This document shows positions 47,777-62,629 of a DNA stretch of 64,000 nucleotides, in pieces. This DNA comes from Methylobacterium nodulans ORS 2060 (GTDB lineage: Bacteria > Pseudomonadota > Alphaproteobacteria > Rhizobiales > Beijerinckiaceae). The DNA is taken from positions 62,001-126,000 of the forward strand of contig NC_011892.1 of NCBI RefSeq assembly GCF_000022085.1, given 5' to 3'. Numbering within the stretch: the first letter of the stretch is position 1; every line of letters begins with the position of its first letter. The position numbers and the translations under genes are program-made. Under the pieces are notes generated by a model. It worked only from the letters and a program-made list of their open reading frames with translations. It ran no database searches and had not been told where the DNA came from.

Positions 47777-48103
47777 ATGATGACGAAGCGATTCCTGACC
47801 GCCGCCGCGGCCGCGGGCCTGCTCGCCGGAGGCGCGGCGTTGGCCGGGCCGCGCACCTACGCGCTGCCCGAGCCAACGGCGCAGCTGAAGGAGCCGAGGG
47901 ACAAGGCGCACGCAGCCGGGTACGAGGCCACGCAGGCCAACTGCCTGACCTGCCACTCGGTCGACTACATCGCCATACAGCCGCCCGGGAAAGGCCGAGC
48001 CTTCTGGGACGCCGAGGTGACCAAGATGATCAAGGTCTACGGCGCCCCGATCAGCGAGGCCGACGCCAAGGTCATCGCCGCCTACCTGGCCGCGGTGTAT
48101 TAA
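47777..48103 (+). CDS. sorB: Cytochrome c subunit of sulfite dehydrogenase (SorB type)
   Basis: The 108-residue monohaem cytochrome has a signal peptide ending in GGAALAG. The haem motif is CLTCH (Cys56, Cys59, His60) and the probable axial ligand is Met84 in TKMIKVYG. It accepts electrons from SorA and passes them to the respiratory chain. The start is the first of two adjacent ATG codons, preceded by GAGAGGCG. Length and arrangement match SorB. Confidence 0.9.
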   Translation: MMTKRFLTAAAAAGLLAGGAALAGPRTYALPEPTAQLKEPRDKAHAAGYEATQANCLTCHSVDYIAIQPPGKGRAFWDAEVTKMIKVYGAPISEADAKVIAAYLAAVY

Positions 48104-48309
48104 CATCGGCCTTTCGGGAAGACGGCACGCGATTGAGTGAGATTTCCGCTGCGCGCCCGAGCGCTTTTTCGTACATAGCCGCCGGAAAAGGCTCCGGAGA
48201 GGGCACCAATGCGTGTATCAGGCTTAGATGCGCCCAGTACTTGCTACAATGCAGCAGGGGAAATTAGGCCTAATCGACCGTTTGCAAGAGGAGGCCGGGG
48301 CGGTGTCGG

Positions 48310-48396
48310 GTAAGCGCTGCCATCAGGCCACGGCTCTGAGGGCTTGTGCGCGCGGGTAGGCCCAAGGCCGCAACTCGTCAATGCGGCCGTTCGGAT
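48310..48396 (-). pseudogene. 3' end of an older IS66 TnpC
   Basis: The reverse strand from 48396 reads PNGRIDELRPWAYP, then RAQALRAVA and a stop, the usual last residues of IS66 TnpC. A GTAAGCGCTG terminal repeat lies at 48309-48318. The TnpA/TnpB part of the older element appears on the far side of the intact IS66, so the middle was lost. Confidence 0.7.
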
Positions 48397-48409
48397 GTAA
48401 GCGTCTTCC

Positions 48410-49927
48410 TCAGGCCACATCCCTGAGCGTGGGCGTGACCGGGTAGGCCCAGGGCAGCAGCTCGTCGATGCGGCTGTTGGGATGGCCCTCGATGATGCGG
48501 GTGATCACGTCGGCAAGATAGGCCTGCGGTCCGACGCCCGTGAGCTTGCAGGTCTCGATCAGCGAGGCGATCACCGCCCAGTGCGCGGCCCCGCCATCCG
48601 AGCCGGCGAAGAGAGCATTCTTTCTCGTCAGGGCCAGGGGACGGATCGCGCGCTCGACCACGTTGGTGTCGAGTTCGACCCGCCCGTCATCGAGGAACAG
48701 GCTCAGGCCAGCCCAGCGGCTCAGCGCGTAGCGGATCGCTTCGGCCAGCTTGCTCTTCTGGCTGATGAGGGCGAGCTTCTCCCGCAGCCAGGGCTCTAGG
48801 GCCTCCAGGATGGGACGGCTGCGCGCCTGACGTGCGGTGCGGCGCTCCTCGGCAGGACGGCCGCGGATCTCGGCCTCGATCCGGTAAAGGCCCGCGATGC
48901 GCGTGAGCACCTCGGCCGCGATCGGCCCATCAAGATCGTAGAACGCCCGCCGTACATGGCTCCAGCAGTAGGCGAGCCGGACCTCGCCTTGCCTGGCCAG
49001 CGCCTTGTAGCCGTCATAGCCATCGACCTGCAGCACGCCCCGGAAGCCGGCAAGATGCGCGATGGGCTGCTTGGCCGTGCGGTCGGGTGCGTAGACGTAG
49101 GCAACGCCCGGCGGATCGGTGCCGCCCCAGGGCCGGTCGTCGCGGGCATACGCCCAGAGCTGGCCTGTCTTGGTGCGGCCGCGTCCGGGATCGAGCACCG
49201 GCGCGCTGGTCTCGTCGGCAAACAGCTTGCCCGAAGCCTTCAGCCTCCCCAGCAGCCGCGCGTGGACCGGCCGCAGCAGGAACGCAGCACGGCCGACCCA
49301 ATCCGCGAGCGTCGAGCGGTCGAGAGCTATGCCCTGACGCGCGAAGATCTGTGCCTGACGATAGAGTGGCAGGTGGTCGGCGTACTTGGCGACGAGCACG
49401 TGCGCGACGAGGTCGTCGGTGGGCAACCCGCCCTCGATCAGCCGCGCCGGCGCGGACGCCTGCAGCACAATAGCCTCGCAGGCACGGCACGCGTAACGCG
49501 GGCGCCGGATCACAATGACCCGGACTTGGGCCGGTACGATGTCGAGGCGCTCGGACACGTCCTCGCCGATCCGGTGCAGGCTGCCCGAGCAGCAGGGGCA
49601 GACGGGGCTCTCGATGTCGACCACGCGCTCGACGCGCGGCAGATGGGCGGGCAGGGCCCCGCGATTGTTGCGCCGGCGCGCTGTACGCTCGGCCCTCACC
49701 GCCGGCGCGGTTTCCTCGGCCGCAAGACCCTCGGCTTCGACCTGCTCGGCCTCCTCCAGCCCGAGCAGGAGCTGGTCCTCGGGCAGGCTCTCGGCGCGAC
49801 GGCCGAAGCGATGACGCTGCATCGCCTTGATGATCTGGCGCAGCCGCTCGTTCTCGGCCCGCTCCTCGGCGAGCAGCGCCTTGAGCGTCTCGGGATCGTC
49901 GGGCGAGGGTGAAGCAGGCGCAGCCAC
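48410..49927 (-). CDS. tnpC: IS66 family transposase TnpC
   Basis: The 505-residue DDE transposase has an N-terminal leucine-rich helix (LKALLAEERAENERLRQII) and a zinc-finger-like region with CPCCSGSLHRIGEDVSE. The catalytic core shows LLQVDGYDGYKAL-type YDGYKAL and AYCWSHVRRAF. A C-terminal DGRVELDTNVVERAIRPLA follows. It has full length and no frame defect. Confidence 0.93.
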   Translation of the reverse strand: MAAPASPSPDDPETLKALLAEERAENERLRQIIKAMQRHRFGRRAESLPEDQLLLGLEEAEQVEAEGLAAEETAPAVRAERTARRRNNRGALPAHLPRVERVVDIESPVCPCCSGSLHRIGEDVSERLDIVPAQVRVIVIRRPRYACRACEAIVLQASAPARLIEGGLPTDDLVAHVLVAKYADHLPLYRQAQIFARQGIALDRSTLADWVGRAAFLLRPVHARLLGRLKASGKLFADETSAPVLDPGRGRTKTGQLWAYARDDRPWGGTDPPGVAYVYAPDRTAKQPIAHLAGFRGVLQVDGYDGYKALARQGEVRLAYCWSHVRRAFYDLDGPIAAEVLTRIAGLYRIEAEIRGRPAEERRTARQARSRPILEALEPWLREKLALISQKSKLAEAIRYALSRWAGLSLFLDDGRVELDTNVVERAIRPLALTRKNALFAGSDGGAAHWAVIASLIETCKLTGVGPQAYLADVITRIIEGHPNSRIDELLPWAYPVTPTLRDVA

Positions 49928-49994
49928 AAAGCGGATTAGATCAGATCACTCAGCCACTTACCAGTACGACGTCCCCTCGCGCCGTTCTTTTTGC

Positions 49995-50351
49995 TCAGCC
50001 TGCCACCGCTGGCGCGCTCACCTGACGAGCCTCGTGGACACGCTTCCAGTCCAGCCCTTCGAGCAGGGCCGAGAGCTGCGCAGCCGTGAGGCGCACGACG
50101 CCGTCCTGAGCCTTCGGCCAGCAGAATTGACCGTCCTCCAGACGCTTGGCCGCGAGAACCACCCCGCTCCCATCCCAGAACAAAAGCTTGGTCCGATCTG
50201 CCCGCTTCGAGCGGAACACATAGACCGTGCCGGAGAACGGATCCGCTCCCATCGCCTCGCGCACCAGCGCGGCCAGCCCGTCGATACCTTTGCGGAAGTC
50301 CACCGGCCGCGTCGCCAGCATCACGCGCACTGTCCCAGCCGGCCCGATCAT
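49995..50351 (-). CDS. tnpB: IS66 family accessory protein TnpB
   Basis: The 118-residue protein has the whole IS66 Orf2 signature: RVMLATRPVDFRKGIDGLAA, DPFSGTVYVFRSKRADRTK, LFWDGSGVVLAAKRLE. It is required for transposition in this family, with unknown biochemistry. Its start overlaps the tnpA stop by four bases. Confidence 0.92.
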   Translation of the reverse strand: MIGPAGTVRVMLATRPVDFRKGIDGLAALVREAMGADPFSGTVYVFRSKRADRTKLLFWDGSGVVLAAKRLEDGQFCWPKAQDGVVRLTAAQLSALLEGLDWKRVHEARQVSAPAVAG

Positions 50352-50812
50352 GCCGAGACCTTCAGCGCCCGGATCACCGCCGCAATCTGAGCCTCGCTCG
50401 CCTCCCCGCCGATGCGGACCGTGGCGCCAGCTACTTCGACCTCAATGCCGTGACAGCCGTGGCGCCAACGCGGCTTGGGGCTCGTCTCTGCACACGCCGG
50501 CTCCTGCGGTTCCGAGATCAGCACGGCCGGCACGAACCGCAGCTCGGCCTGCTGATCATCCATCGCCGCTTGGCGCGCCAAGCGCCGCCACGTGAACAGC
50601 TGCGAGGCGCTCAGGCCATGCCGGCGCGCTACCGCGCTGATCGAGGTGTTCGGCGCCTCGCTCTCGGCGACAATGGCCGCCTTCTCATCCTCCGACCACG
50701 TCCGCCGCCGGCCGGCCCCGGTGAACAGCTCCAGGCGCCGGACCGGCTCCGACATAGCCATACGCTCTGACATCGACATAGGACGGAGCTCCTGACCCGC
50801 TCCGTATCCCAT
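50348..50812 (-). CDS. tnpA: IS66 family accessory protein TnpA
   Basis: The 154-residue protein has the helix-turn-helix RRRTWSEDEKAAIVAESEAP, then ISAVARRHGLSASQLFTWRR, and a C-terminal GIEVEVAGATVRIGGEAS strand region. Several ATG codons near the N-terminus (50812, 50776 and others) leave the precise start open. Confidence 0.9.
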   Translation of the reverse strand: MGYGAGQELRPMSMSERMAMSEPVRRLELFTGAGRRRTWSEDEKAAIVAESEAPNTSISAVARRHGLSASQLFTWRRLARQAAMDDQQAELRFVPAVLISEPQEPACAETSPKPRWRHGCHGIEVEVAGATVRIGGEASEAQIAAVIRALKVSA

Positions 50813-50855
50813 GCTCAGCCGAGCTCCCGAAAGGTGCCTCCAAAACGACGCTTAC

Positions 50856-51096
50856 GTGAGGGCCAGAGAAAGCGGCCCTTCTCCAATCTTTTCGCGTAGA
50901 GCGATAGCCCGAGACCGTGATGCCAGAGACATTTGATCAGATCACCGCGCCGGCCGCGGAACACGGAGAGATCCCCGGCGTGCGGATCGCGCCCGAGCGC
51001 CTCCTGCCCCTGCAGGCAGAGGCCGTTCATGCCGCGGCGCATGTCGGTGTGGCCGCTGGCGATCCAGACCCGGACGCCCGAGGGGACCGGGATCAT
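50856..51096 (-). pseudogene. IS66 TnpB of the older element, truncated
   Basis: The frame gives RVWIASGHTDMRRGMNGLCL, then DLIKCLWHHGLGLSLYAKRL and GRFLWPS, after which the intact IS66 begins. About two-thirds of TnpB remains. Its start overlaps the upstream tnpA stop. Confidence 0.8.
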
Positions 51097-51518
51097 CGCC
51101 CCTCCAACACAGCCAGCACGCGGGCCGGCGCCTCGGCCTCCACGCTGGCATCGACGACGATGCGCCGGCCTTTGCCCAGCACGATCACCATGCGGCTCGA
51201 AGTCGACGATGATCGGGAGGTCTCGGCCCGCTCTCTGGTGGGCTCCGGCGCGGGCACGACCACCGCCGGCACGAAGGTCGGCGTTACTGCCGGGGCCGAC
51301 CGGCTCGCCGCGAAGGCACGCCGCCAGGTCAGGAGCAGCGAGCGCGAGATGCCGTAGCGACGTGCGGTGGCGGAGACCAAGCGCGGCCTCTGCAGGCTCT
51401 CCCGCACCACCTTGAGCTTCTCGTCCTCCGACCAGCAGCGACGCCGGCCGGTCTCAACAATCTCGAGGCGCCTGAGGCGCGCACTGTGCGTATGACTGTC
51501 CATACGCACTGTTCTCAA
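51093..51518 (-). CDS. IS66 TnpA of the older element
   Basis: The 141-residue protein has the same fold as the other TnpA (RRRCWSEDEKLKVVRESLQR, ATARRYGISRSLLLTWRR) but is clearly a different IS66 lineage. It is complete but without a functional tnpB or tnpC partner. The start could be the ATG at 51518 or 51503. Confidence 0.8.
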   Translation of the reverse strand: MRTVRMDSHTHSARLRRLEIVETGRRRCWSEDEKLKVVRESLQRPRLVSATARRYGISRSLLLTWRRAFAASRSAPAVTPTFVPAVVVPAPEPTRERAETSRSSSTSSRMVIVLGKGRRIVVDASVEAEAPARVLAVLEGR

Positions 51519-51732
51519 CGGCCGATCATCTGCCCCGCAAGGCGGTCCTCTGCGGAGGGATACGTAACGACCAGGCGCTCGCGCAGATTAACAGACAACG
51601 CTGACCGCATGGCAGCCCCCTTGCGAAAGCCGCGCATCGATCAGAACCAGGCCGGACCGACTACCCGTCCCGACTCAGACCGCTCGGGCACCGCTCTAGT
51701 CCGACAGGCCGCCACGAAGACAGCCCGCCGGA
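51519..51732. other. Intergenic stretch
   Basis: No gene is visible, nor a clear right-hand IS66 end for the older copy. GC falls toward the following cluster. Confidence 0.35.
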
Positions 51733-51987
51733 TCAAATTAGGCTGCGTTGAGAAGGCAATTCAGCGGATTCGATGCCTTCCTGCTCCCGTAGCTTTGTCA
51801 CTAGCTTAGAAGCCGCTGCGTCATCAGTGACTTCAGCATACCAGAGTCGCCGCAGTGCCGGTTTGGTTGCCTTAGGACTGATTCTCCCGACGTTGCTGAC
51901 GCCGGCAAGATTCTTGATATGGTCGCGGATCTCGTCCTGCACTTTCTCTGGTGTATGCGCGCCAAATTTGAACATTACACTTTTCAT
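51733..51987 (-). CDS. Small protein, peptidase-inhibitor-like (inferred)
   Basis: The 84-residue protein follows the S8 peptidase stop by four bases on the same strand. The pattern of short strands and helices (VMFKFGAHTPEKVQDEIRDH, AEVTDDAAASKLVTKLREQ, GIESAELPSQRSLI) resembles the subtilisin propeptide/I9 inhibitor fold, in which the C-terminal tail lies in the protease cleft. A trans-acting chaperone or immunity role for the S8 domain is an inference. The alternative is an unrelated ferredoxin-fold protein. GC is lower than that of the IS elements. Confidence 0.6.
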   Translation of the reverse strand: MKSVMFKFGAHTPEKVQDEIRDHIKNLAGVSNVGRISPKATKPALRRLWYAEVTDDAAASKLVTKLREQEGIESAELPSQRSLI

Positions 51988-51991
51988 TGAT

Positions 51992-52449
51992 CTACCGCCC
52001 TGCTTGAAGTAGCCTGGACAGATTTATCCGGCCTGTACCGTAGTCCACACTGAAGTCGCTTCCATTCATAGCGGGTACCTTATCAGCGGACTCCATCAGC
52101 GCTTGCCTGACTTGCGCAGGCGTCGGCTTTTCGTTGGCAGCGATACCCTTGGCGATGAAAAGGGCAGCGCACCCCGTGACATGTGGTGCCGCCATCGAAG
52201 TTCCATCCCAGGCATCATAATTAATCTCCCGGCGCACAGGCACCCCCAGCTTTGGCCGCCTGTCGGAGCCGAACACGACTCCAAAAGCCGTTTGACCGGG
52301 GTAGGCGGGGAGCGTCGACCAGATTGCCTTGCCAGGTGCTGCCACCGAGATGTGATTACCGCTGTTTGAAAACATGGTGACCCGATCGTCCAGTCCGGTA
52401 GCGCCAACCGCGATGATACCAGGGATTGCTGCTGGATAGGACGTTGGGC
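51992..52449 (-). pseudogene. S8 (subtilisin) peptidase C-terminal part, separated by inversion
   Basis: The minus-strand frame starts in SPTSYPAAIPGIIAVGATG. It continues through FSNSGNHISVAAPGKAI and the catalytic serine block GTSMAAPHVTGCAALF, ending at 51992 with GTGRINLSRLLQAGR. The Asp and His of the triad are not on this strand; they lie in the inverted segment 52450-53855. Joining the frames at the TGCCA/TGGCA repeats gives NERQYG then SPTSYPAAIPG in frame. Longer minus-strand frames beyond 52455 are antisense of the inverted NlpC sequence. Confidence 0.85.
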
Positions 52450-53855
52450 TGCCACAAACCCGCGGCTCCGCTTCCCAGATGGCTCCATCAACCAGCACGA
52501 CTGGGCACGTGCCTCGGGATTAGAAAAGTCAACGATCACCGAAGCTATGAGTAAAGACGGTGTCGTTCGGATTGCATTCCTCCGCCCCCAGGACTCACGA
52601 AAGGGTATTGGTCACGTCGTCTTAATCAATAACGGCAAGACGCTAGAGTCGCATGGTGGGGTCGGCCCGGACTCTCGCGACTGGACGGGGGCAAACTGGC
52701 AGGCGAAGGCTTTCGTCTATGTCCTTGCGCGCAAGGCCCAGGTCACCGCAGTGGGAGCGGAGCCTATGGCGGCGCAGCCAATTTTGGCTGATGTTCAGGT
52801 CGTGGGGGCACCGGCCGTCATCGGGCGCAGCGACGCGATCACGACTGGTCGAATAATGTCAAACGTGTTCACAACAGCTTCTCTGCCAGAACATCACGAC
52901 GCGCTCCTAATCGTCAACATGCGGCAGGAGACGATGCAGGTCGCCCCCGCAATGGCAATGGCTGCAATGCCACCACCTCCCGAGACAGAGGGCTTGAGTG
53001 CGCTTTCATTCTTCGAACGGGCTGGGCAGGTAAAGAGAATTGTGCCGCTGCGCCGGAGCGAGCAAGCGGGCAATGCTCCTCTACGAATGGCAGCCGCCTC
53101 AGCGTTGATGTTCGCAGCACAACCCCCCGAAAATACTGACGCAGCAGCTGCTGTGCGCTTCATCGAGATGAAGCGCGAGCAAGACACCCAGCAACTCCAC
53201 ACTGCCCTCGCCGCCGATCCAAATGTTCTCTCGGTTTCCCGTGTGCCTGTCCGTTATCTCACGGCACGCAGGACCTCCCGCACTCGGCTCGCCGGAGGAG
53301 GCATTGGCATCGAGGCGGCACCGCCAACCGGATCGGTTTTGTGGGATCTCGAGAAGATCCGGTGGCAAGAGGCCCGTCGTGCTGAAGGCTTTATGGAAGC
53401 TGGCAATGTGCGGGTAGCCGTCTTCGATACGGGTATTGACGATGGGCATACCGAGCTAAAAATTGACCAATACTATTGGCGTCACCCCGACCTTACAAGA
53501 CCGGTGTCAAACCGAGACATCATTGGACACGGCACTCACGTCTCCGGGATAATTGCGGCACTGATCGGCCGCGGCGTGTCAGTTCAAGGTATATGCGACT
53601 GCAAACTTGATGTTTGGAAAATTTTTGATGACGAACCAACATATGCGCCGGGTCAAGGCGCCTTTGTATACTACGTGAACCCGATTATGTATCGCCGTGC
53701 CTTGGCGGACTGTGTCGAAAATCCGCCGGACGTGCTCAATCTTAGCATTGGTGGACCCGCCGCTCCGGATGCTACGGAGAGAGACTTGTTTGACCAACTC
53801 ATTGAGGCAGGCGTTACAATCTGCGCCGCGATGGGTAACGAACGGCAGTATGGCA
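52450..53855 (+). pseudogene. Inverted 1.4-kb segment: NlpC/P60 second half plus S8 peptidase first half
   Basis: On the plus strand the frame reads ATNPRLRFPDGSINQHDW, then SKDGVVRIAFLRPQ and GHVVLINNGKTLESHGG, the second half of an NlpC/P60 domain with its catalytic His region. A Pro/Ala linker and a propeptide-like stretch lead into a subtilisin domain: Asp in VAVFDTGIDDGH, His in GHGTHVSG, oxyanion Asn in CAAMGNERQYG. The frame stays open to 54070, but beyond 53855 it is antisense of the lysozyme/NlpC gene. The ends are TGCCA (52450-52454) and TGGCA (53851-53855). Both missing halves sit on the opposite strand just outside. Confidence 0.87.
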
Positions 53856-54919
53856 AGGCGAACGGCTTCTCTCACGAAGCCGCTGCAATCGACCTGCGTG
53901 AAGTCGCGCCCCGGCACGGCTTCGAGAAATGGTACCTTTTTACCAAGTCCATAGGTGACGCGCGGATGCGCGTTTCGGCAGGCATCAAGAAATTCCTACG
54001 CCCGAGAAATGTCGAGATTGATGGCCCCGATCGCTGCAAAGGTTGGACTGTCGAGCGAGGCGTCATCTGATGCTCCAGGAGCACCGAGGTTGGCGAGAAA
54101 CCGGGCTGTCTCAAAATCTGCGGTCTCGTTCGTGTCACTGTTACCTGGAGCACCCGGGTCATCCTCGTCCGCAGCTATTCCTGATTCTTCGAACGCGACG
54201 AAGCTTAGTCCGGCTCCAGCACCGCTGAACGCAACGGCTGGAGTTACCGCAGTCGCAGCCGCCTCTTCGCAATAGGGCAGAAGGCGCATAACGTCTCGGG
54301 CGTATTGTTGCGCCTTTGGGCCAGAGCCGTTGTAGGCCCGGACGGCGTCTTGGATATCGCCCGTGATCTGCACCTTCTTGGTGAGTTCAGAAACGGCACG
54401 GTTGACGCACTCTTTGAAATTGTACCACTTCCTTTCTCTGAAGAAACCTTCGTCCGTCCGAACATATTGCAGGTCGTACTGGAATATGTCATAGCCCTTG
54501 TAGACTATGGACGCTGGGTTGAGGCCGCGGGCCATCCGCGCTTTGTTCGTCTCCCCTATAAGGAGATCCGTAAAAGCCTCGCCGTAGGATAGCCGGAACT
54601 GCGCTGTGTTCGTAGGAAATGCGCTTCGCGGTGCACCGGCAACATCGCCGCTCGCGTCATAAACGCAAAGCCCAAGGATCTCGGTCGCCGGCCTATGTGG
54701 GGTGAGCGGCAGCCAGTACATGCCGGCCTCCCTACACGCAATGGCGCATAGTAGTGGCACAGTGAACGGAGTCGACCTAACAGCATCCGCCAGATCGGAC
54801 CGGAAATTGGCTATCATCCAGCGCGTGACACCCTGCGCGACGTCCTGTTCGGTATGCGCCCTTGTTGCCATCATACCAGCTTCGGCTATCTCGTTCTCAC
54901 CCCGGAGATCGTCAATCAT
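53856..54919 (-). pseudogene. Lysozyme-like domain plus NlpC/P60 first half, with in-frame TAG
   Basis: From the ATG at 54919 (AAGGAGG upstream) the frame encodes a lysozyme-like domain (VPLLCAIACREAGMYWLPLT, then AVRAYNGSGPKAQQYARDV) and an Ala/Gly/Asp-rich linker. A TAG at 53996-53998 ends it after 307 residues. The same frame resumes with EFLDACRNAHPRVTYGLGKK and the NlpC/P60 catalytic-cysteine block VDCSGFVREAVRLA, which is cut at 53856 by the inverted segment. The 307-residue product may still be made. The undisturbed gene would encode one protein of about 975 residues combining two wall-hydrolase domains and a protease. No signal peptide is seen. Confidence 0.83.
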
Positions 54920-55055
54920 GGCCCCATGCTCCTCCTTGTGATGACCTTAGCTTGGCTGATCGCAGTCACTCCAGGTGGTCGCGCAATGCGCCCGTTTCGC
55001 TTACATTCTGGAATGGATGCGAGCCGATCGCACCGGGTAGTTGTGTCTTTTCATA

Positions 55056-55694
55056 CTATTTCAGCTTGACGGCGCGCAGCCCCCCCACAATGACCTCAGA
55101 GGCAACGCCAGCTAGGAACAATCCCGCATAGTCGGAAAGACCTCCGGATCCGAAGGTTTCTGCTGTTCCAGATCCACCATATTGCTGCAATACAAAGACG
55201 ATAGTAAGCGCGGCCAGCGTTAGAACTACAATAACAGGCAACATCCAATCATAAATATCTTGAAGCGGAACTGGAGACACGCCTGCGACCCATCTCAGAA
55301 AGCAAAGTTGGCGTCCAATTTGCTTTGCAGTATTTTGGCTGGCGACGGAACTAAACGTGGAGCCGGTTGCCATGCCGAGACTGCTCCTTGCAGCATCTAC
55401 GTCCGTTTCCAACTTATAGACCTCAGGTTGCAGCGATGCAGCATCGCCGGTGCGAGCAGCAAGGCGTCTTCGCAGACTGTCCAACCGTATTTGCAATGGC
55501 GCGCGCTGGGCGGGGTCGGTGACGCCCTCGAGGTTTCGATCAATATCGTTGAGCCAGTCGAGCAGCTGTAGCCGCGCAATCACCTTAGGATCGTAGACAA
55601 GTTGCGAAAAACGTCCGAGCACGATCCCGCAAAGGGCCGTGAGCAGTGCCCAGAACGCAGAGGCGCGGATTCGGAATTCTACTGGCACTCTCAA
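55056..55694 (-). CDS. Membrane protein with coiled-coil loop, function unknown
   Basis: The 212-residue protein has an N-terminal membrane helix (AFWALLTALCGIVLG). A soluble, helix-rich region of about 120 residues follows (DPAQRAPLQIRLDSLRRRLA). Then come a second helix (WMLPVIVVLTLAALTIVFVL) and a third (YAGLFLAGVASEVIVGGL). The start at 55694 would be a TTG; no ATG fits. It lies between a secreted protein and the lysozyme/NlpC/S8 gene, all on the minus strand. The topology suggests a cytoplasmic or periplasmic sensor loop anchored by a pore-like hairpin, but the family is not recognised. Confidence 0.65.
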   Translation of the reverse strand: MRVPVEFRIRASAFWALLTALCGIVLGRFSQLVYDPKVIARLQLLDWLNDIDRNLEGVTDPAQRAPLQIRLDSLRRRLAARTGDAASLQPEVYKLETDVDAARSSLGMATGSTFSSVASQNTAKQIGRQLCFLRWVAGVSPVPLQDIYDWMLPVIVVLTLAALTIVFVLQQYGGSGTAETFGSGGLSDYAGLFLAGVASEVIVGGLRAVKLK

Positions 55695-55724
55695 TACAGC
55701 TTTGCCCGACGTTGTAAGGCTTAA

Positions 55725-56204
55725 CTACCCCGTGTAGAGGCCGGCGCGAAGACCTCTGTTTGGAAGTTTCAACTGGAGAGCCACTGTCTGACCCGGCTGA
55801 AGTTCTATCCGCTGAGGCATTGAGAGCAGGCTGGTGTCGCCGAGCGCCACAGCAGGTCCGTTGGTAGGCATAAACTCAGGGGTAATTGTGAGCAATTGCG
55901 GACCATCATTAATAATGGGAATCACAGCGACATTATCTCGGACGACACTTGGAGCGAAAACGCCCGATAGCCAACATCTCGAAAGTAGACAGTCGGCACC
56001 GATTAAACGAATAATATTTGTTGAATTAAGCAGCTTCAAAGCAGATTTTTCATCGGCATGAGCAGTGTTTACAAGCAATCCTAGAAAGAGAGTAAAAATT
56101 TGAAAAAAACTTCTCCTCTTGCCAAAGTATGGGTGGGCGCCCATCTTCCTGAAAAGATGTCCTTTACTGAATAAGCGGTGGGACTCGGGATCTGGGCGTA
56201 TCAT
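55725..56204 (-). CDS. Secreted or membrane-anchored beta-rich protein, function unknown
   Basis: The 159-residue protein has a start at 56204 preceded by GGGAGGTGAGC. After a basic region a hydrophobic segment ends in LFLGLLVNTAHA, a probable signal peptidase site. The mature part is rich in short strands (NVAVIPIINDGPQLLTITPE, IELQPGQTVALQLKLPNR) and recalls Ig-like or DUF-type periplasmic domains without a clear match. It is the first gene of the minus-strand cluster leading to the wall hydrolase/protease. A later ATG at 56144 would give a more standard signal peptide. Confidence 0.6.
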   Translation of the reverse strand: MIRPDPESHRLFSKGHLFRKMGAHPYFGKRRSFFQIFTLFLGLLVNTAHADEKSALKLLNSTNIIRLIGADCLLSRCWLSGVFAPSVVRDNVAVIPIINDGPQLLTITPEFMPTNGPAVALGDTSLLSMPQRIELQPGQTVALQLKLPNRGLRAGLYTG

Positions 56205-56300
56205 GCTCACCTCCCACCTCACCATAGAAGCGTGAAATTGCGAAGATTGCAACCCTGGCGAGATTATGGATGGCTGGAGCTCTTGATAGTGGCTGCGGCG

Positions 56301-56566
56301 GGGCTTGTCGCAGACTCGGAGGCGAGCCGCGGAAGGGGCCTAATGGTCCCGCTTTCATGCAGGAGGCGAGCCGCTGGTTCTGCTCGCACACGGTCCATGT
56401 GCCCGCGAACCCGAAGTCCTTGCGCAGCCACAGCATGGCCGCGAAGCCCTGGACCGTGCGCCGGGCCGTGGTGAACGAGCGGAAGTCACCCACCCGCGGC
56501 ATCGGCCGCTTGACCCGGAAGTGGTCGCTCGCGATCCCTTGCTGCAGGGGCTTGGTGACATGGTGA
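56301..56566 (-). pseudogene. IS6-family transposase C-terminal fragment with terminal repeat
   Basis: The minus frame reads VTKPLQQGIASDHFRVKRPM, then FRSFTTARRTVQGFAAMLWL, the usual end of IS6 transposases. GGGCTTGTCGCAGAC at 56301-56315 is the outer repeat, similar to but not identical with the ends at 7848 and 20025. The first two-thirds of the gene are missing. Confidence 0.7.
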
Positions 56567-56639
56567 GTGGGCGCGTGGGGCAGCAGGCCGTCCTCCCGGC
56601 TCGCGGCGAGGGCCGGCGGGTTGGGAGGCGATGGGCACC

Positions 56640-56779
56640 GGAACGGCGCGGTCCGCGACCGCTCGCAGGTTTTCAACCCGAAGACGGAGACCTGGACGAA
56701 GCGGAACGCCGACACCGGCCGCTTCATGGACGGAAAGAAGGACGGCACCCCCTTCAAGGGCGTGCGCAAGGAGCGCTGA
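56640..56779 (+). pseudogene. Small conserved protein, 5'-truncated
   Basis: The frame ending at 56779 reads RDRSQVFNPKTETWTKRNAD, then TGRFMDGKKDGTPFKGVRKE, a short conserved module I associate with small uncharacterised proteins of this genus. No start codon is visible; the IS6 fragment lies directly upstream. Confidence 0.5.
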
Positions 56780-56843
56780 GGCGCTCAAGGCGGGCTCGTC
56801 GCGTGATGGGCTCGCAACCTCATGCCCTCACGTAAGGCGGATC

Positions 56844-58406
56844 ATGGCCAAAAACATCGTGGTCTTCTCGGACGGCACGGGGCAGGACGGCGGCGTCCGC
56901 CCCGAGCAGCGCGTCAGCAACGTCTACAAGATGTATCGGGTCTGCAAGGTCGGGCCTGAGAGCGGCATCGATCCGGCGGAGCAGGTCGCGTTCTACGATC
57001 CGGGGCTGGGCACCGACATCGGCGCCACGGCCCTGACGGCGCCCGTCAGGTTCGTGCAGAAGATGGCCGCCTCCGTCTCGGGGCGGGGCATTACCACGAA
57101 CATCGCCGACTGCTACCGCTTCATCATCGACCATTACGAGCCGGGTGACCGCATCTACCTGATCGGCTTCAGCCGCGGCGCCTACACGGTCCGGTGCGTG
57201 GCGAACCTCCTCATGTACTGCGGTGTGCCGACCAAGGGCGCCGGCGGTCCGCTGCTGCGCTTCTGCAAGATGACACGGGACATCGCGCGCGAGGCCGTCG
57301 AGACGGTGTTGGAGCATGGTGCTGGCCACCCCCGGAAGGACTTCGATGCGGAGCGGCACGAACTCGCCCGACGGTTTCGGGCCAAGTACGGCTCGGACCA
57401 TGACGACGGCGACGGGAAGTCCAACGTCGAGCCTTACTTCATCGGCACCTTCGACACGGTCGCTGCCTTGGGGGTCGCCGGCCCGAAGCGCACCCTGATC
57501 AAGGCTGGCTTGGCAGCGGCGGTGGTCATCCCACTGGCCATTGTCATCGCGGTGACGTCAGCCGTGGTCGGAGGCATCTCGTACCTGTTCGACGGTCCCT
57601 TCTGGCAGGCCGACCTGATCACCTCCGGCGTCCTCGTCGTCGCGTCGGCGGCGGTCGCCTTCGCGGTGCGACGGCACCTCGTGGCCGCGAAGACCAAGAC
57701 CATCACCGATTGGCCGTCGCCCGGCGAGAAGAGGAGCCACGTCGCGGAGTGGAAGGGCGAGAACTTCGACCGCCTGCTCAGCGCCCAGGTCGGCTACGCC
57801 CGCGCCGCCATCGCCATCGACGAGCGGCGCAAGGACTTCGACCGCGTGAAATGGGGTCCGACCGAGACCCCGCCGCCGCGGGCGCCCGGCGCGCCCGACC
57901 AATTCCGGCAGTTCTGGTTTGCGGGCAACCACTCCGACATCGGCGGCAGCTACGACGAGACCGAGTCCCGCCTGTCCGACATCGCGCTCAAGTGGATGCT
58001 GGAGCAGGCCGTCGGCATCCCGGATGGCCTCAAGGTGGATGGTATGCCGACGATGGCGGATCCCATGCATCCCGTCGAGGTGATGCAGATCCCGCGGCTG
58101 CGGCTGCATCCCTCCGCAGCCGGCGTGCAGCACTGCGAGGTCGCCGGCATGCGCGACGCCATCGAAGAGCGCATGTCGGCCTCGTGGGTGCCTGGCTGGG
58201 TGCGGCGCTGGGCGCAGGGCAAGACCTGGGAGACCAAGGACCGGGAGATCAGGCCCGACGCGACGGTGCACCCGAGCGTCGACGAACGCTTTGCCCTTCC
58301 CGCTGTCGTGCAGTGCGACGGTCTTGCCTCCTACCGACCGGCCCCGCTGGCGAACCACGTCCGGTTCAAGGACCGTTACGGGCCTCAGCCGAAACCCACC
58401 GCGTGA
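56844..58406 (+). CDS. DUF2235 alpha/beta-hydrolase with internal membrane hairpin
   Basis: The 520-residue protein starts with KNIVVFSDGTGQDGG, the family's opening. The nucleophile elbow is GFSRGAYT (Ser110), an acidic residue follows in YFIGTFDTVAALG, and a His lies in FAGNHSDIGGSY. Two hydrophobic helices interrupt the hydrolase (about 219-248 and 258-276), so the enzyme is probably tethered to the inner membrane. DUF2235 proteins include phospholipase-type T6SS effectors (Tle1) and cytoplasmic members of unknown role. Here no T6SS gene is near. The gene is followed 18 bases later by a decayed SLATT-domain gene, a combination that hints at a conflict or stress system. Confidence 0.85.
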   Translation: MAKNIVVFSDGTGQDGGVRPEQRVSNVYKMYRVCKVGPESGIDPAEQVAFYDPGLGTDIGATALTAPVRFVQKMAASVSGRGITTNIADCYRFIIDHYEPGDRIYLIGFSRGAYTVRCVANLLMYCGVPTKGAGGPLLRFCKMTRDIAREAVETVLEHGAGHPRKDFDAERHELARRFRAKYGSDHDDGDGKSNVEPYFIGTFDTVAALGVAGPKRTLIKAGLAAAVVIPLAIVIAVTSAVVGGISYLFDGPFWQADLITSGVLVVASAAVAFAVRRHLVAAKTKTITDWPSPGEKRSHVAEWKGENFDRLLSAQVGYARAAIAIDERRKDFDRVKWGPTETPPPRAPGAPDQFRQFWFAGNHSDIGGSYDETESRLSDIALKWMLEQAVGIPDGLKVDGMPTMADPMHPVEVMQIPRLRLHPSAAGVQHCEVAGMRDAIEERMSASWVPGWVRRWAQGKTWETKDREIRPDATVHPSVDERFALPAVVQCDGLASYRPAPLANHVRFKDRYGPQPKPTA

Positions 58407-58424
58407 ACCAGTCGGACAGGGCTG

Positions 58425-58708
58425 ATGGAAGATTTCACCTCGCTTGAGGACCAAGTCCGGGAGTGCTTCGGACGCGTGGTCTATACGCACAAGACGCATG
58501 AATAGATGGCCGACAACTGCAGCAACACGCTGCGACGCCTGAAGCTGGCCCAGATCGCGCTCTCGGCGCTCACGTCGTCCGGGGTGCGTCGAGCATCTTC
58601 GTCGACAGGCCCGAGTTGAAGATCGGAGCCGCTTTCCTGTCGTTCTTTACCGTCTGGATTTTGAGCTACATGAAGGGCTTCGATCCGGGCGGTACGGCGC
58701 AGAAGCAA
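58425..58708 (+). pseudogene. SLATT-type 2TM effector gene, broken
   Basis: From the ATG at 58425 the frame reads MEDFTSLEDQVRECFGRVVY and THKTHE, then TAG at 58503. It resumes with MADNCSNTLRRLKLAQIALS ALTSSG as the first membrane helix, shifts frame near 58590, and continues as IFVDRPELKIGAAFLSFFTV WILSYMKGFDPGG, the second helix. This is the start of a SLATT (SMODS/SLOG-associated 2TM) protein. It is cut off near 58708 by IS3 sequence, so three separate lesions are present. Confidence 0.7.
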
Positions 58709-58799
58709 TTACCCAGGGGGTGGCGCATGGCTCCGGGGCGAGGGAGGCGGCGGGCCGGATGCGCTTGCCGAGAGGCGGGCGAGCTAATTCCCTGCCGGT

Positions 58800-59148
58800 A
58801 TGGGACGATCCGAGCTTGAGCGACGCCGGCAGGCGGTTGCTGGCATCCGAGAGAAGTACGGTCTCTCGGAGCGCCACGCCTGTCGGATCGTCGGTCAGCA
58901 CCGGGGCACGCACCGCTACGTGCCCACCGTGCCGGCCGACGAGGATGCGCTGACCTGCGCCATCATCGCCCTGGCGTCCGAGTACGGGCGCTATGGCTAC
59001 CGCCGCGTGACCGCGCTGCTGCAGGCAGCCGGGTGGCAGGTGGGCAAGGATCGGGTGCAGCGGATCTGGCGTCGCGAGGGGCTGAAGGTCCCGCAGAAAC
59101 ACCGGCCGCGTGGACGGCTGTGGCTGAAGGGCGGATTGGACTTGCTCC
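58800..59148 (+). pseudogene. IS3-family OrfB N-terminal fragment
   Basis: The frame begins GRSELERRRQAVAGIREKYG, then YGRYGYRRVTALLQAAGWQV and RVQRIWRREGLKVPQKHRPR, the region before the integrase core of an IS407-type OrfB. It ends at the tail of an oppositely oriented IS3 relic. Confidence 0.7.
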
Positions 59149-59151
59149 GGA

Positions 59152-59241
59152 TTAGTGGAGAGCGGTTTGGCTGGCGCTGCGCCTTTCGAACTGGGCAGGG
59201 CTGACGTAATCCAGCGCCGAGTGGCGGCGTACCGGGTTGTA
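59152..59241 (-). pseudogene. IS3 OrfB C-terminal piece, separated by recombinase element
   Basis: The minus strand reads YNPVRRHSALDYVSPAQFER and a stop at 59152. It is the exact continuation of the OrfB at 61887-62629, which ends in RYIDGFYN; the two share TACAA at the junction. Confidence 0.8.
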
Positions 59242-59590
59242 CAACCTCTCACCACAAGACCCATAGTACCGGCGCGGGCGACGAGGTCGTCGTGGTCTAC
59301 GCGTGGCACCCGTGGGCCGGGCGCGCCGTCTGCGTCCACGAGGTGATCGAGCGCACGACCGGCGCGGCGGCGCGCTGCTCGCTCGCGGACGCGCCCATCG
59401 TCCGCCCTCAGGAACTCCCGGTCTGGATGCTCGATCCCGTTGCGTGCCGCACGATGCAGGCGACGGCGCAGCCGGTCGCGGCCATGTCCGCGCTGATGAG
59501 CTTGCACGCCCTCCTCGCCGCTGCGACGGGCGGCCAGCACCGCGCCCCGAGCCGAGCCCGGCTAGCATCGCCCGAGTCCCCGGGAGATCG
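59242..59590 (+). CDS. Recombinase-associated accessory protein
   Basis: The frame reads GAGDEVVVVYAWHPWAGRAV CVHEVIERTTG, then DAPIVRPQELPVWMLDPVAC. This is a conserved protein found upstream of large serine recombinases in rhizobial and Methylobacterium elements, of unknown function. No ATG precedes the homology; a GTG at 59292 is the only start inside. The natural stop seems lost, since the frame runs on to 59807 over the next genes, so the coordinates given are those of the conserved part. Confidence 0.5.
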
Positions 59591-59592
59591 TC

Positions 59593-59814
59593 ATGCCTCA
59601 TCCTCCGCGCCGACCGCGCCGGTCGGACCCGCAACTCGAACTCGGTTTAACGAGCGGGCCATCGACCCCGACAGCGCCGCCGGCCTGAGGCGACCTGCCG
59701 GAGGCGACCCAGCAGACCCTCACCCGTCTCCTGACCCACCTGCTCGTCGCGCACGCCCGCGGCGCCGATCCGCAGCCGGGCGCCCGAGCCGGAGGCAGCC
59801 CCGATGAGCGCTGA
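59593..59814 (+). pseudogene. Small recombinase-associated protein with in-frame TGA
   Basis: From the ATG at 59593 the frame gives RRSDPQLELGLTSGPSTPTA PPA, a TGA, then [25 protein letters not shown] to a stop overlapping the recombinase start. The stop sits where related sequences, as I remember them, have Trp. Confidence 0.5.
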
Positions 59815-61862
59815 GAAGATCGGCCCGCAGCACCGGGCCCGCAAAGCCGTGCTCTACGTCCGCCAGTCCTCGGCGCATCAGGTCCAGCACAACCGTGAGA
59901 GCCAGGCGCTGCAGTACGCCATGCGCGAGCGGCTTGCGGGGCTCGGCTTTGCTGAGATCGAGGTGATCGACGAGGACCTCGGCTGCTCGGCCGCCGGCGG
60001 GACGCCCCGCGCCGGCTTCGAGCGCATGGTCGCCGAGGTGTGCCTGGGCAAGGTCGGCGCGGTCGCCGCCCGTGAGGTCTCGCGCTTTGCCCGCAACAGC
60101 CGCGACTGGCAGCAGCTCGTGGAGATGTGCCGCGTCGTCGATACCCTGCTTGTTGATCAGGAGACGATCTACGCGCCTCGCCTCGGCAACGACCGCCTGC
60201 TCCTGGGGCTCAAGGGCAGCCTCAACGAGTACGAGCTCGACCTTCTGCGCCAGCGCTCGCTGGCGGCGCGCTACGAGAAGGCCCACCGCGGCGAGCTCGT
60301 GGTCGCGGCCCCCGTGGGCTTCATCAAGGTCGGAGCCCGGCTCGAGATGGATCCTGATCGGCGCGTGCAGGCGGCGATCCGGCTTGCCATCGACAAGGTG
60401 GCCGAACTCGGCAGCGTGCGTCAGGCGCTGCTCTGGTTCCTGGAGCACGGGCTCGATCTGCCGACCCGCGTCAACGCCGGTCCGGTCGTCTGGCGCCGCC
60501 CCCGCTACTCGACGCTTCGCGCGTTCATTGCCAATCCCGCCTATGGCGGCGCCTACGCCTACGGTCGCAGCCGCGTCACCGCCAGCTACGACGCGGCCGG
60601 AGCCAAGGCGCGGGCGCGGCGCACGCCTCGTTCGGAATGGCTGGCGTTGAAGCCTGGCGCGCATGAAGGTTACGTGGCGTGGGAGCGGGCGGAGGCGATC
60701 CGGGCGATGGTGAGCGAGAACGTCCCGGCAAGTTCCCGCGGCGCGCCCAAGCTCGGCGCGGCGCTGCTCTCGGGGCTGCGGCCGCTGCGGGCGCAAGCTG
60801 AACGTGCAGTACACGGGGGCCAAGGGACAGATCCCGCGCTACGCCTGCGTGCGCGGGCGGATCGACTACGGCGAGCCGAACTGCATCGCCTTTGGGGGCC
60901 TGCGCGTCGACGACGTGGTGGAGTCAGCGCTCCTGTCTGTCGTGCAGCCGGCCGCGGTTGAGGCGGCGCGAGCGGCCGAGGCACAGGCGAACACGCGGCG
61001 CGACGAGGCCCGCGCGGCCATGGTGCGCGACCTGGAGGCGGCACGCTTCGCGGCCGACCGCGCCTTCCGGCAGTACGATGCCGCTGATCCCGAGAACCGC
61101 CTGGTGACCGGCGAACTCGAGGCGCGTTGGAACCGGGCTCTGGCCCGAGTGGGCGCTTGCGAGGCGCGCATCGCCGAGCACGAAGCGGCCACTCCGCGGC
61201 CCGCCCTCGCTCCTGCGGCGCTCGAGACGCTGGCCGCGGACCTGCGCGGTATCTGGTCGGCACCGACAACGGATGCCCGGCTCAAGAAGCGGATCGTGCG
61301 CACTGTCCTCCACGAGGCCGTTGCTGACCTCGACGAGGCGCGGGCCGAGATCGTGCTGACGCTGCACTGGGTGGGCGGCGCCCACACCGAGCACCGCCTG
61401 CCACGCCGCCGGCGCGGCCAGCGCACCAGCACGCCCGCCGACGTGGTTGAGGCCGTGCGCGCGCTGGCGCTGATCGCGCGTGACGACGTGATCGCGGGCG
61501 TGCTCAATCGCAACGGCGTGAGGACAGGGCACGGCAACCGCTTCACGCGCGAGCGCGTCACGGCGCTGCGCTCGCACTACCGCATTCCGGTGTTCCGCGC
61601 GGGCGCAGAGGGAGAGGAGCCCTGGCTGAACCTGAGCCAGGCAGCCGCCCTCGTCGGGGTGGCCGCGCGCACGCTTCGTCTGGCGGCGGAACGGGGCGAG
61701 GTCGATGCGGTGCATCCTCTCGCAGACGGACCCTGGGTGTTCAGCCGAGCCGCTCTCGACAGCCCGGCCGCCCGGGCCCTCGCGCAGGGGACGCTGAACC
61801 GCAGCAAACACCCCGCGGTACCGGATCCGGCGCAGCAAAGCCTCTTCGCATCAACAGCATAG
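59804..61862 (+). pseudogene. Large serine recombinase with one frameshift
   Basis: The first frame (59804 to about 60785) has the resolvase domain with the catalytic serine in [19 protein letters not shown] and [16 protein letters not shown], then the recombinase domain ([20 protein letters not shown]). Near 60785 a small deletion shifts the frame. The second frame carries the zinc-ribbon end ([10 protein letters not shown]), [17 protein letters not shown], a long coiled-coil and a helix-turn-helix (LNLSQAAALVGVAARTLRLA). The catalytic half alone could still be made. Full length would be about 685 residues. It likely catalysed insertion of this element. Confidence 0.82.
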
Positions 61863-61886
61863 CGAGATGTGCGTTCTGATGAGCAA

Positions 61887-62629
61887 TTGTAGAAGCCGTC
61901 GATGTAACGAGCCAGGGCCTCGCTCGCCTCGGCTCGGGTGTGGAACACGGTGCGCCAGACCAACTCGCTTTTCAGCGTCTTGAAGAAGCTCTCGGCCATG
62001 GCGTTGTCGTAACAGTTCCCCTTGCCTGACATCGAGATCAGAATGCCGTTCTTTTTGAGTTCGGCCTGGTACTCGGTCGAGAAATATTGGCTGCTGCGAT
62101 CTGAATGATGGATCAGGCCGCCTGATGGTCCGCGAACAGCAAAAGCTCGTCGCAGTGCCGTGAGCGCCAACTCTTTGTGGAGCCGGTCGCTGGCCGCCCA
62201 ACCGACCACGCGCCGCGCGAACAGATCGATGACAACAGCGAGGTACAACCAGCCCTCCCTTGTCCAGAGGTAGGAGATGTCGGCCGCCCACTTCTCGTCC
62301 GGACGCGCGGCCGTGAAGTCCAGCTCGAGCAGGTTGGGCGCGACCGGGAAGGCGTGCTGGCTGTCGGTGGTGTGCCGAAAGCGGCGCGGCTGGCGAGCAC
62401 GCAACCCGTTTTCCCGCATCAGCCGCGCAGTGCGGCGGCGGCCGACGCTCAGCCCCTGGTCCTGAAGCTCGCGCGTCATCCGCGGGCTGCCGTAGGTCTC
62501 ATTGGAAAGCGCGAAGGCCGAGCGGACGTGCGCCAGCAGCACGAGGTCCTCGCGCTGGCGCCGACAGGCAGGACGGCTCCTCCAGGCGAAGTAGCTGCTC
62601 TGGCTGGCGTTCCTCGCAGGACACGCCAC
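61887..62629 (-). pseudogene. IS3 OrfB (N-terminal and catalytic part), split by recombinase element
   Basis: The integrase-type transposase shows ETYGSPRMTRELQDQGLSVG, DFTAARPDEKWAADISYLWT (first Asp), GLIHHSDRSSQYFSTEYQ (second Asp) and ISMSGKGNCYDNAMAESFF (Glu). It is complete up to RYIDGFYN, after which it is interrupted at the TTGTA sequence. The missing tail lies at 59152-59241. OrfA is not found upstream. Confidence 0.85.

Follow-up and report, generated by a model that had tools for sequence, protein, structure and literature searches.

Results

A hydrolase gene in three pieces

The window, as we call the whole 64,000-nucleotide stretch of Methylobacterium nodulans ORS 2060 DNA analysed here, corresponds to positions 62001-126000 of contig C5 (487,734 bases), in a genome of 8,839,022 bases and 8 contigs. 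It holds the parts of a single hydrolase gene, which now lie on both strands (Table 1; window coordinates throughout).

Table 1. Parts of the disrupted gene and its downstream ORF
Feature	Coordinates	Strand	Remarks
Putative lysozyme-like module (N-terminal) and linker	53999..54919	-	307 codons, open; ends at the in-frame TAG
In-frame TAG stop	53996..53998	-	upstream of the inverted segment; no stop here in either intact relative
NlpC/P60-like domain, first part with the Cys	53856..53995	-	original strand
GTG codon	53917	-	first in-frame start past the TAG
Inverted segment, 1406 bp	52450..53855	+	His-bearing remainder of the NlpC/P60-like domain, middle region and first part of S8
Left junction, TGCCA	52450..52454	+	
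Right junction, TGGCA	53851..53855	+	5-bp inverted match to the left junction
Last part of the S8 domain, bearing the catalytic Ser	51992..52449	-	original strand
Small downstream ORF, 84 aa	51733..51987	-	no interruption; L014 has an ORF of 65% identity behind its intact gene

An earlier note on this DNA had claimed a 1.4-kb inversion, and tblastn searches with intact orthologues bear this out for the sequence as assembled, the middle of the gene being inverted relative to intact relatives. The minus strand carries residues 21-388, which run from 54946 down to about 53856. The alignment then passes to the plus strand, where residues 388 to about 854 occupy 52451 to about 53855, and returns to the minus strand for the last part, residues from about 854 to 1002, at about 52449 to 52004. 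All three pieces match intact proteins, with 63-76% identity and each with an E value below 1e-72, and on this comparison of sequences the inversion is more than a chance arrangement. The NlpC-like Cys was left on the minus strand while its His was carried off. In S8, the inverted segment carries Asp, His and the oxyanion Asn and has taken them away from the Ser, which stayed behind. The split of the S8 domain had been described correctly: Pfam S8 positions 3-157 are found on the plus-strand ORF and positions 160-288 on the minus-strand ORF. Thus, the Peptidase S8 domain (PF00082) of the window lies over two strands, with Asp, His and Ser not in one chain, whereas in intact relatives the three residues belong to a single chain.

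The reading frame holds a second lesion. Read from 54919 on the minus strand, the frame is stopped at codon 308 (nucleotide offset 921) by a TAG. This stop precedes the inverted segment by 140 bases and falls in the linker that leads to the NlpC-like part; relatives read on at this point in the orthologue comparison. This TAG was overlooked in the earlier reading of the locus. The span of 2928 bases does equal the 976 codons counted there, but with the TAG inside it is not a single open frame. The agreement of frames across the junctions is upheld by arithmetic from the tblastn coordinates, according to which base 52451 would be in phase 0 of the minus frame. Re-inversion, which had been said to restore both reading frames, returns the order of the pieces but gives no full-length protein, because the TAG lies upstream of the segment. 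The gene therefore carries two lesions, the inversion and the TAG, where its relatives are uninterrupted.

The junction sequences lie at the positions given in the earlier note. Inverted identity between the two junctions extends over 5 bp, and since random pairs of ends in the gene reach 5 bp or more in 0.58% of trials, this match probably took part in the inversion. A longer imperfect junction repeat was considered and rejected: 20 of 55 flanking positions are alike, against a background mean of 14.0 (s.d. 3.2), and 4.7% of random pairs reach 20. A repeat scan of 51500-55500 found neither repeat families nor inverted pairs of at least 12 bp at the junctions. An RNA element was likewise rejected, there being no Rfam match at the gathering threshold in 48000-60000.

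Domains and protein family

Sequence support for the lysozyme label given to the N-terminal part is absent in Pfam, PHROGs and the PDB, and structural modelling gives it modest, not decisive support from the fold, with a predicted lysozyme-like domain at model residues 22-225 that would be complete before the linker bearing the TAG. The candidate fold is that of g-type lysozymes and lytic transglycosylases, whose mark would be a shared catalytic Glu. The model of the intact homologue P0121 is poor (mean pLDDT 52, pTM 0.35), and the best 50 of its 559 structural matches are nearly all subtilisins. When four intact family proteins were scanned with the NlpC/P60 profile (PF00877, curated cut-off 23 bits), L014 and P0122 scored 13.5 and 12.9 bits, and at E up to 1 neither P0132 nor P0135 was matched. 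In all 24 aligned homologues the Cys and His of NlpC type are invariant.

The family is modular. Among nine homologues scanned, five (P0145, P0147, P0152, P0153 and P0155) carry a different hydrolase domain ahead of S8, the alternatives being Rv2525c-like, GH46, Peptidase_M74 and Amidase_3. The libraries searched hold no specific name for the intact lysozyme-like/NlpC-like/S8 family, and in the open-licence PMC literature we found no paper with all the terms of the lysozyme-like/NlpC/S8 combination together. On pseudogenes and inversion in M. nodulans, the same literature yielded one genome paper, PMC2680597.

Intact relatives and the ancestral arrangement

The earlier note had proposed looking for the uninverted full-length protein in relatives, and it exists there: intact genes are held by Methylobacterium sp. 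4-46 (P0121), Methylobacterium sp. WSM2598 (L014) and the same-genus genome G036 (L003). The two intact same-genus orthologues, L014 (1002 codons) and L003 (1004 codons), are each one uninterrupted frame, and collinear homologues add to them. The alignment comprised the first 24 of 75 proteins found (P0121-P0144, 968-1092 aa), all of which keep Cys348, His414, Asp684, His718, Asn821 and Ser911 (P0121 numbering). Since the order is collinear through both junction points in all 24 of these full-length homologues, the arrangement in the window is, as judged from the alignment, the derived one.

At E 1e-20 or better, four of 111 genomes of the genus gave a match, the window's own included. Two of the four have full uninterrupted genes (99-100% identical to the query), one matches over residues 281-481 only, and in the window's own genome the gene is in three pieces. 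The ancestral state thus rests on two close relatives with the whole gene, one fragment and more distant homologues. A separate search of relatives gave matches in 11 of 99 genomes, mostly weak S8 matches.

The intact P0121 and L014 each have the same parts as the window gene, but in one frame. L014 also shares the small downstream ORF with the window locus; this ORF has no Pfam match over the cut-off and is perhaps a partner of the protease. The pieces of the gene (51992-54919) have a GC content of 0.58-0.59, lower than that of the window (0.65) and of the uninterrupted L014 gene (0.68), which suggests a different recent history.

Neighbourhood, plasmids and recombinases

At 48410-51518 lies what appears to be an IS66 element inside another IS66 element. 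The first set is tnpA at 51518-51093 with a 93-codon tnpB at 51096-50815, and a second set of ORFs (50812-48410) follows in the order tnpA-tnpB-tnpC. IS66 families were matched by both ORFs of the first set and by the transposase, and the two middle ORFs are named by their place only. An IS-mediated inversion was considered and rejected, as these genes coincide with neither junction and no junction repeat is present in 51500-55500. On the other side of the gene, ORF 56631-58406 carries a T6SS Tle1-like phospholipase domain (PF09994, 219.7 bits).

Twelve plasmid records of near identity match window positions 48000-56000, and of the 13 places matched the 12 listed all fall in 48444-50387, which is the IS66 part. 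A more distant DNA search of plasmids returned seven records, none of which covers 80% of the gene. With the plus-strand ORF as protein query, 79 plasmid records were found (69 Sinorhizobium; 20 of the 79 listed), none covering 80%, and its N-terminal 104 residues match only Rhizobium sp. TH2 and Methylobacterium indicum among plasmids, both partially.

A nearby invertase, which the earlier note had proposed to look for, was sought with recombinase profiles, and no dedicated one was found in the window. The genome has 31 PF00239 matches, one of them in the window (59846-60295), about 6 kb away, and 30 PF00589 (tyrosine recombinase) matches, none of them in the window. The serine recombinase ORF (59804-60961, PF00239 and PF07508) belongs to a stretch of 2.66 kb (about 59236-61898) with two further copies on contig C7, printed as 100% identical, making three in the genome. 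Because the stretch recurs in this way, the recombinase reads as a mobile element's own enzyme, and the three-copy stretch is probably a recently active mobile element.

Age of the probable loss

Outside the two lesions, the 970 codons examined contain no other stop, and no frameshift was seen in any piece, each aligning with relatives in one frame. In all four pieces dN (0.08-0.26) is lower than dS (1.3-2.9, near saturation), which reflects the time before the loss and cannot date it. Single substitutions that give a stop make up 2.8% of those possible in the gene sequence, so that after 100 neutral substitutions (3.4% divergence) the probability of no further stop is 0.06; if the TAG is counted as a neutral stop, the probability of at most one is 0.23 at 3.4% and 0.08 at 5.2% divergence. 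These bounds assume that every piece is neutral and are weaker if the N-terminal part is still under selection. Given the stop-free codons and these probabilities, the loss is probably recent relative to the split from the relatives, which supports loosely the view that the inversion is very recent.

Discussion

In this work, we have examined a gene whose parts are all present and whose order is not that of its relatives. We consider it highly probable that this is a young pseudogene, produced by a one-off inversion at short homology together with a nonsense mutation. The ancestral gene would have encoded one protein with lysozyme-like, NlpC/P60-like, middle and S8 subtilase regions. The TAG would be a nonsense mutation in the linker preceding the NlpC-like part, and illegitimate (short-homology) recombination at the 5-bp shared ends would have produced the simple 1406-bp inversion. 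By parting the NlpC-like Cys from its His, and the S8 Asp and His from the Ser, the inversion would leave neither enzyme made. The two lesions may have arisen in either order, and had the TAG preceded the inversion, the inversion would have been neutral. In E. coli mutation-accumulation experiments, spontaneous inversions that were verified are rare but do arise, with one in 67 wild-type lines and one in 37 mutS lines (PMC10292909). As in other pseudogenes formed by a one-off inversion and a nonsense mutation, we find here a simple inversion, an early stop and intact orthologues in relatives; the window gene differs in that both breakpoints lie inside a single gene, so the lesion is easily seen and all pieces are present.

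The clean fit of the frames, from which a switch had been suspected, is expected for any length-preserving inversion of a once-intact gene and does not speak for a switch. Since an inversion leaves the length unchanged, the frame outside it is preserved in every case, and an interior once in frame will always fit. What the fit does indicate is a simple inversion without later indels.

Intragenic inversions are reportedly treated by Chanin et al. (2024), as cited in PMC11868660. A reversible phase switch, in which a recombinase flips the 1.4-kb segment in a fraction of the population and turns the protease/wall hydrolase on and off, would agree with a simple inversion whose frame is conserved in the pieces. 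It could draw on the serine recombinase about 6 kb away or, in trans, on the products of the other PF00239 and PF00589 matches of the genome. Nothing found points to such a trans-acting enzyme, the nearby one belongs to the stretch repeated on another contig, no tyrosine-recombinase match lies in the window, and the aligned homologues are uniformly collinear. Site-specific, phase-variable intragenic invertons resemble the window gene in that the inversion lies within coding sequence, but they have inverted repeats of 10-40 nt and an invertase, as described in PMC11892184, whereas here the shared ends are 5 bp, no dedicated invertase was found in the window, and the upstream TAG bars a complete working product in both orientations. 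We therefore regard the on/off switch as very improbable. Flipping at a low rate, by short homology or a recombinase in trans, with the flipped form giving a separate NlpC-like/S8 protein from GTG 53917, is extremely improbable; if true, it would make the locus a split switchable pair, in which the lysozyme-like part is constant and the protease part varies.

The arrangement is known from one assembly, in which an assembly or base-calling error could lie behind either lesion, and a flipped piece would also look like an inversion that conserves the frame. Yet repeats of at least 12 bp that might cause a misjoin are absent from the junctions and the region's DNA matches only itself in the genome, so that it is unlikely that the real DNA is not inverted. 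Compatible with the pseudogene reading is an accepted split, in which the lysozyme-like part would work alone and the rest would be debris. The stop falls in the linker after a lysozyme-like domain that is complete in the model, the 307 codons are open with dN 0.25 against dS 2.3, and P0149, P0150, P0151 and P0154, at 558-586 aa, have no precomputed S8 domain, although by consensus these keep the NlpC-like part and some may be fragments. From these sequences we consider the accepted split possible but doubtful; the open N-terminal codons may still yield a lysozyme-like protein of 307 residues.

What does the locus tell us? Read as a young pseudogene, it offers a clear case, open to checking, in which an inversion wholly within one gene accounts for the gene's loss, and a reminder that conservation of the frame, expected of any simple inversion, is by itself no sign of a switch. 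More interesting than the broken gene is the intact family, in which a lysozyme-like or other hydrolase module is joined to a subtilase, and which may merit a study of its own.
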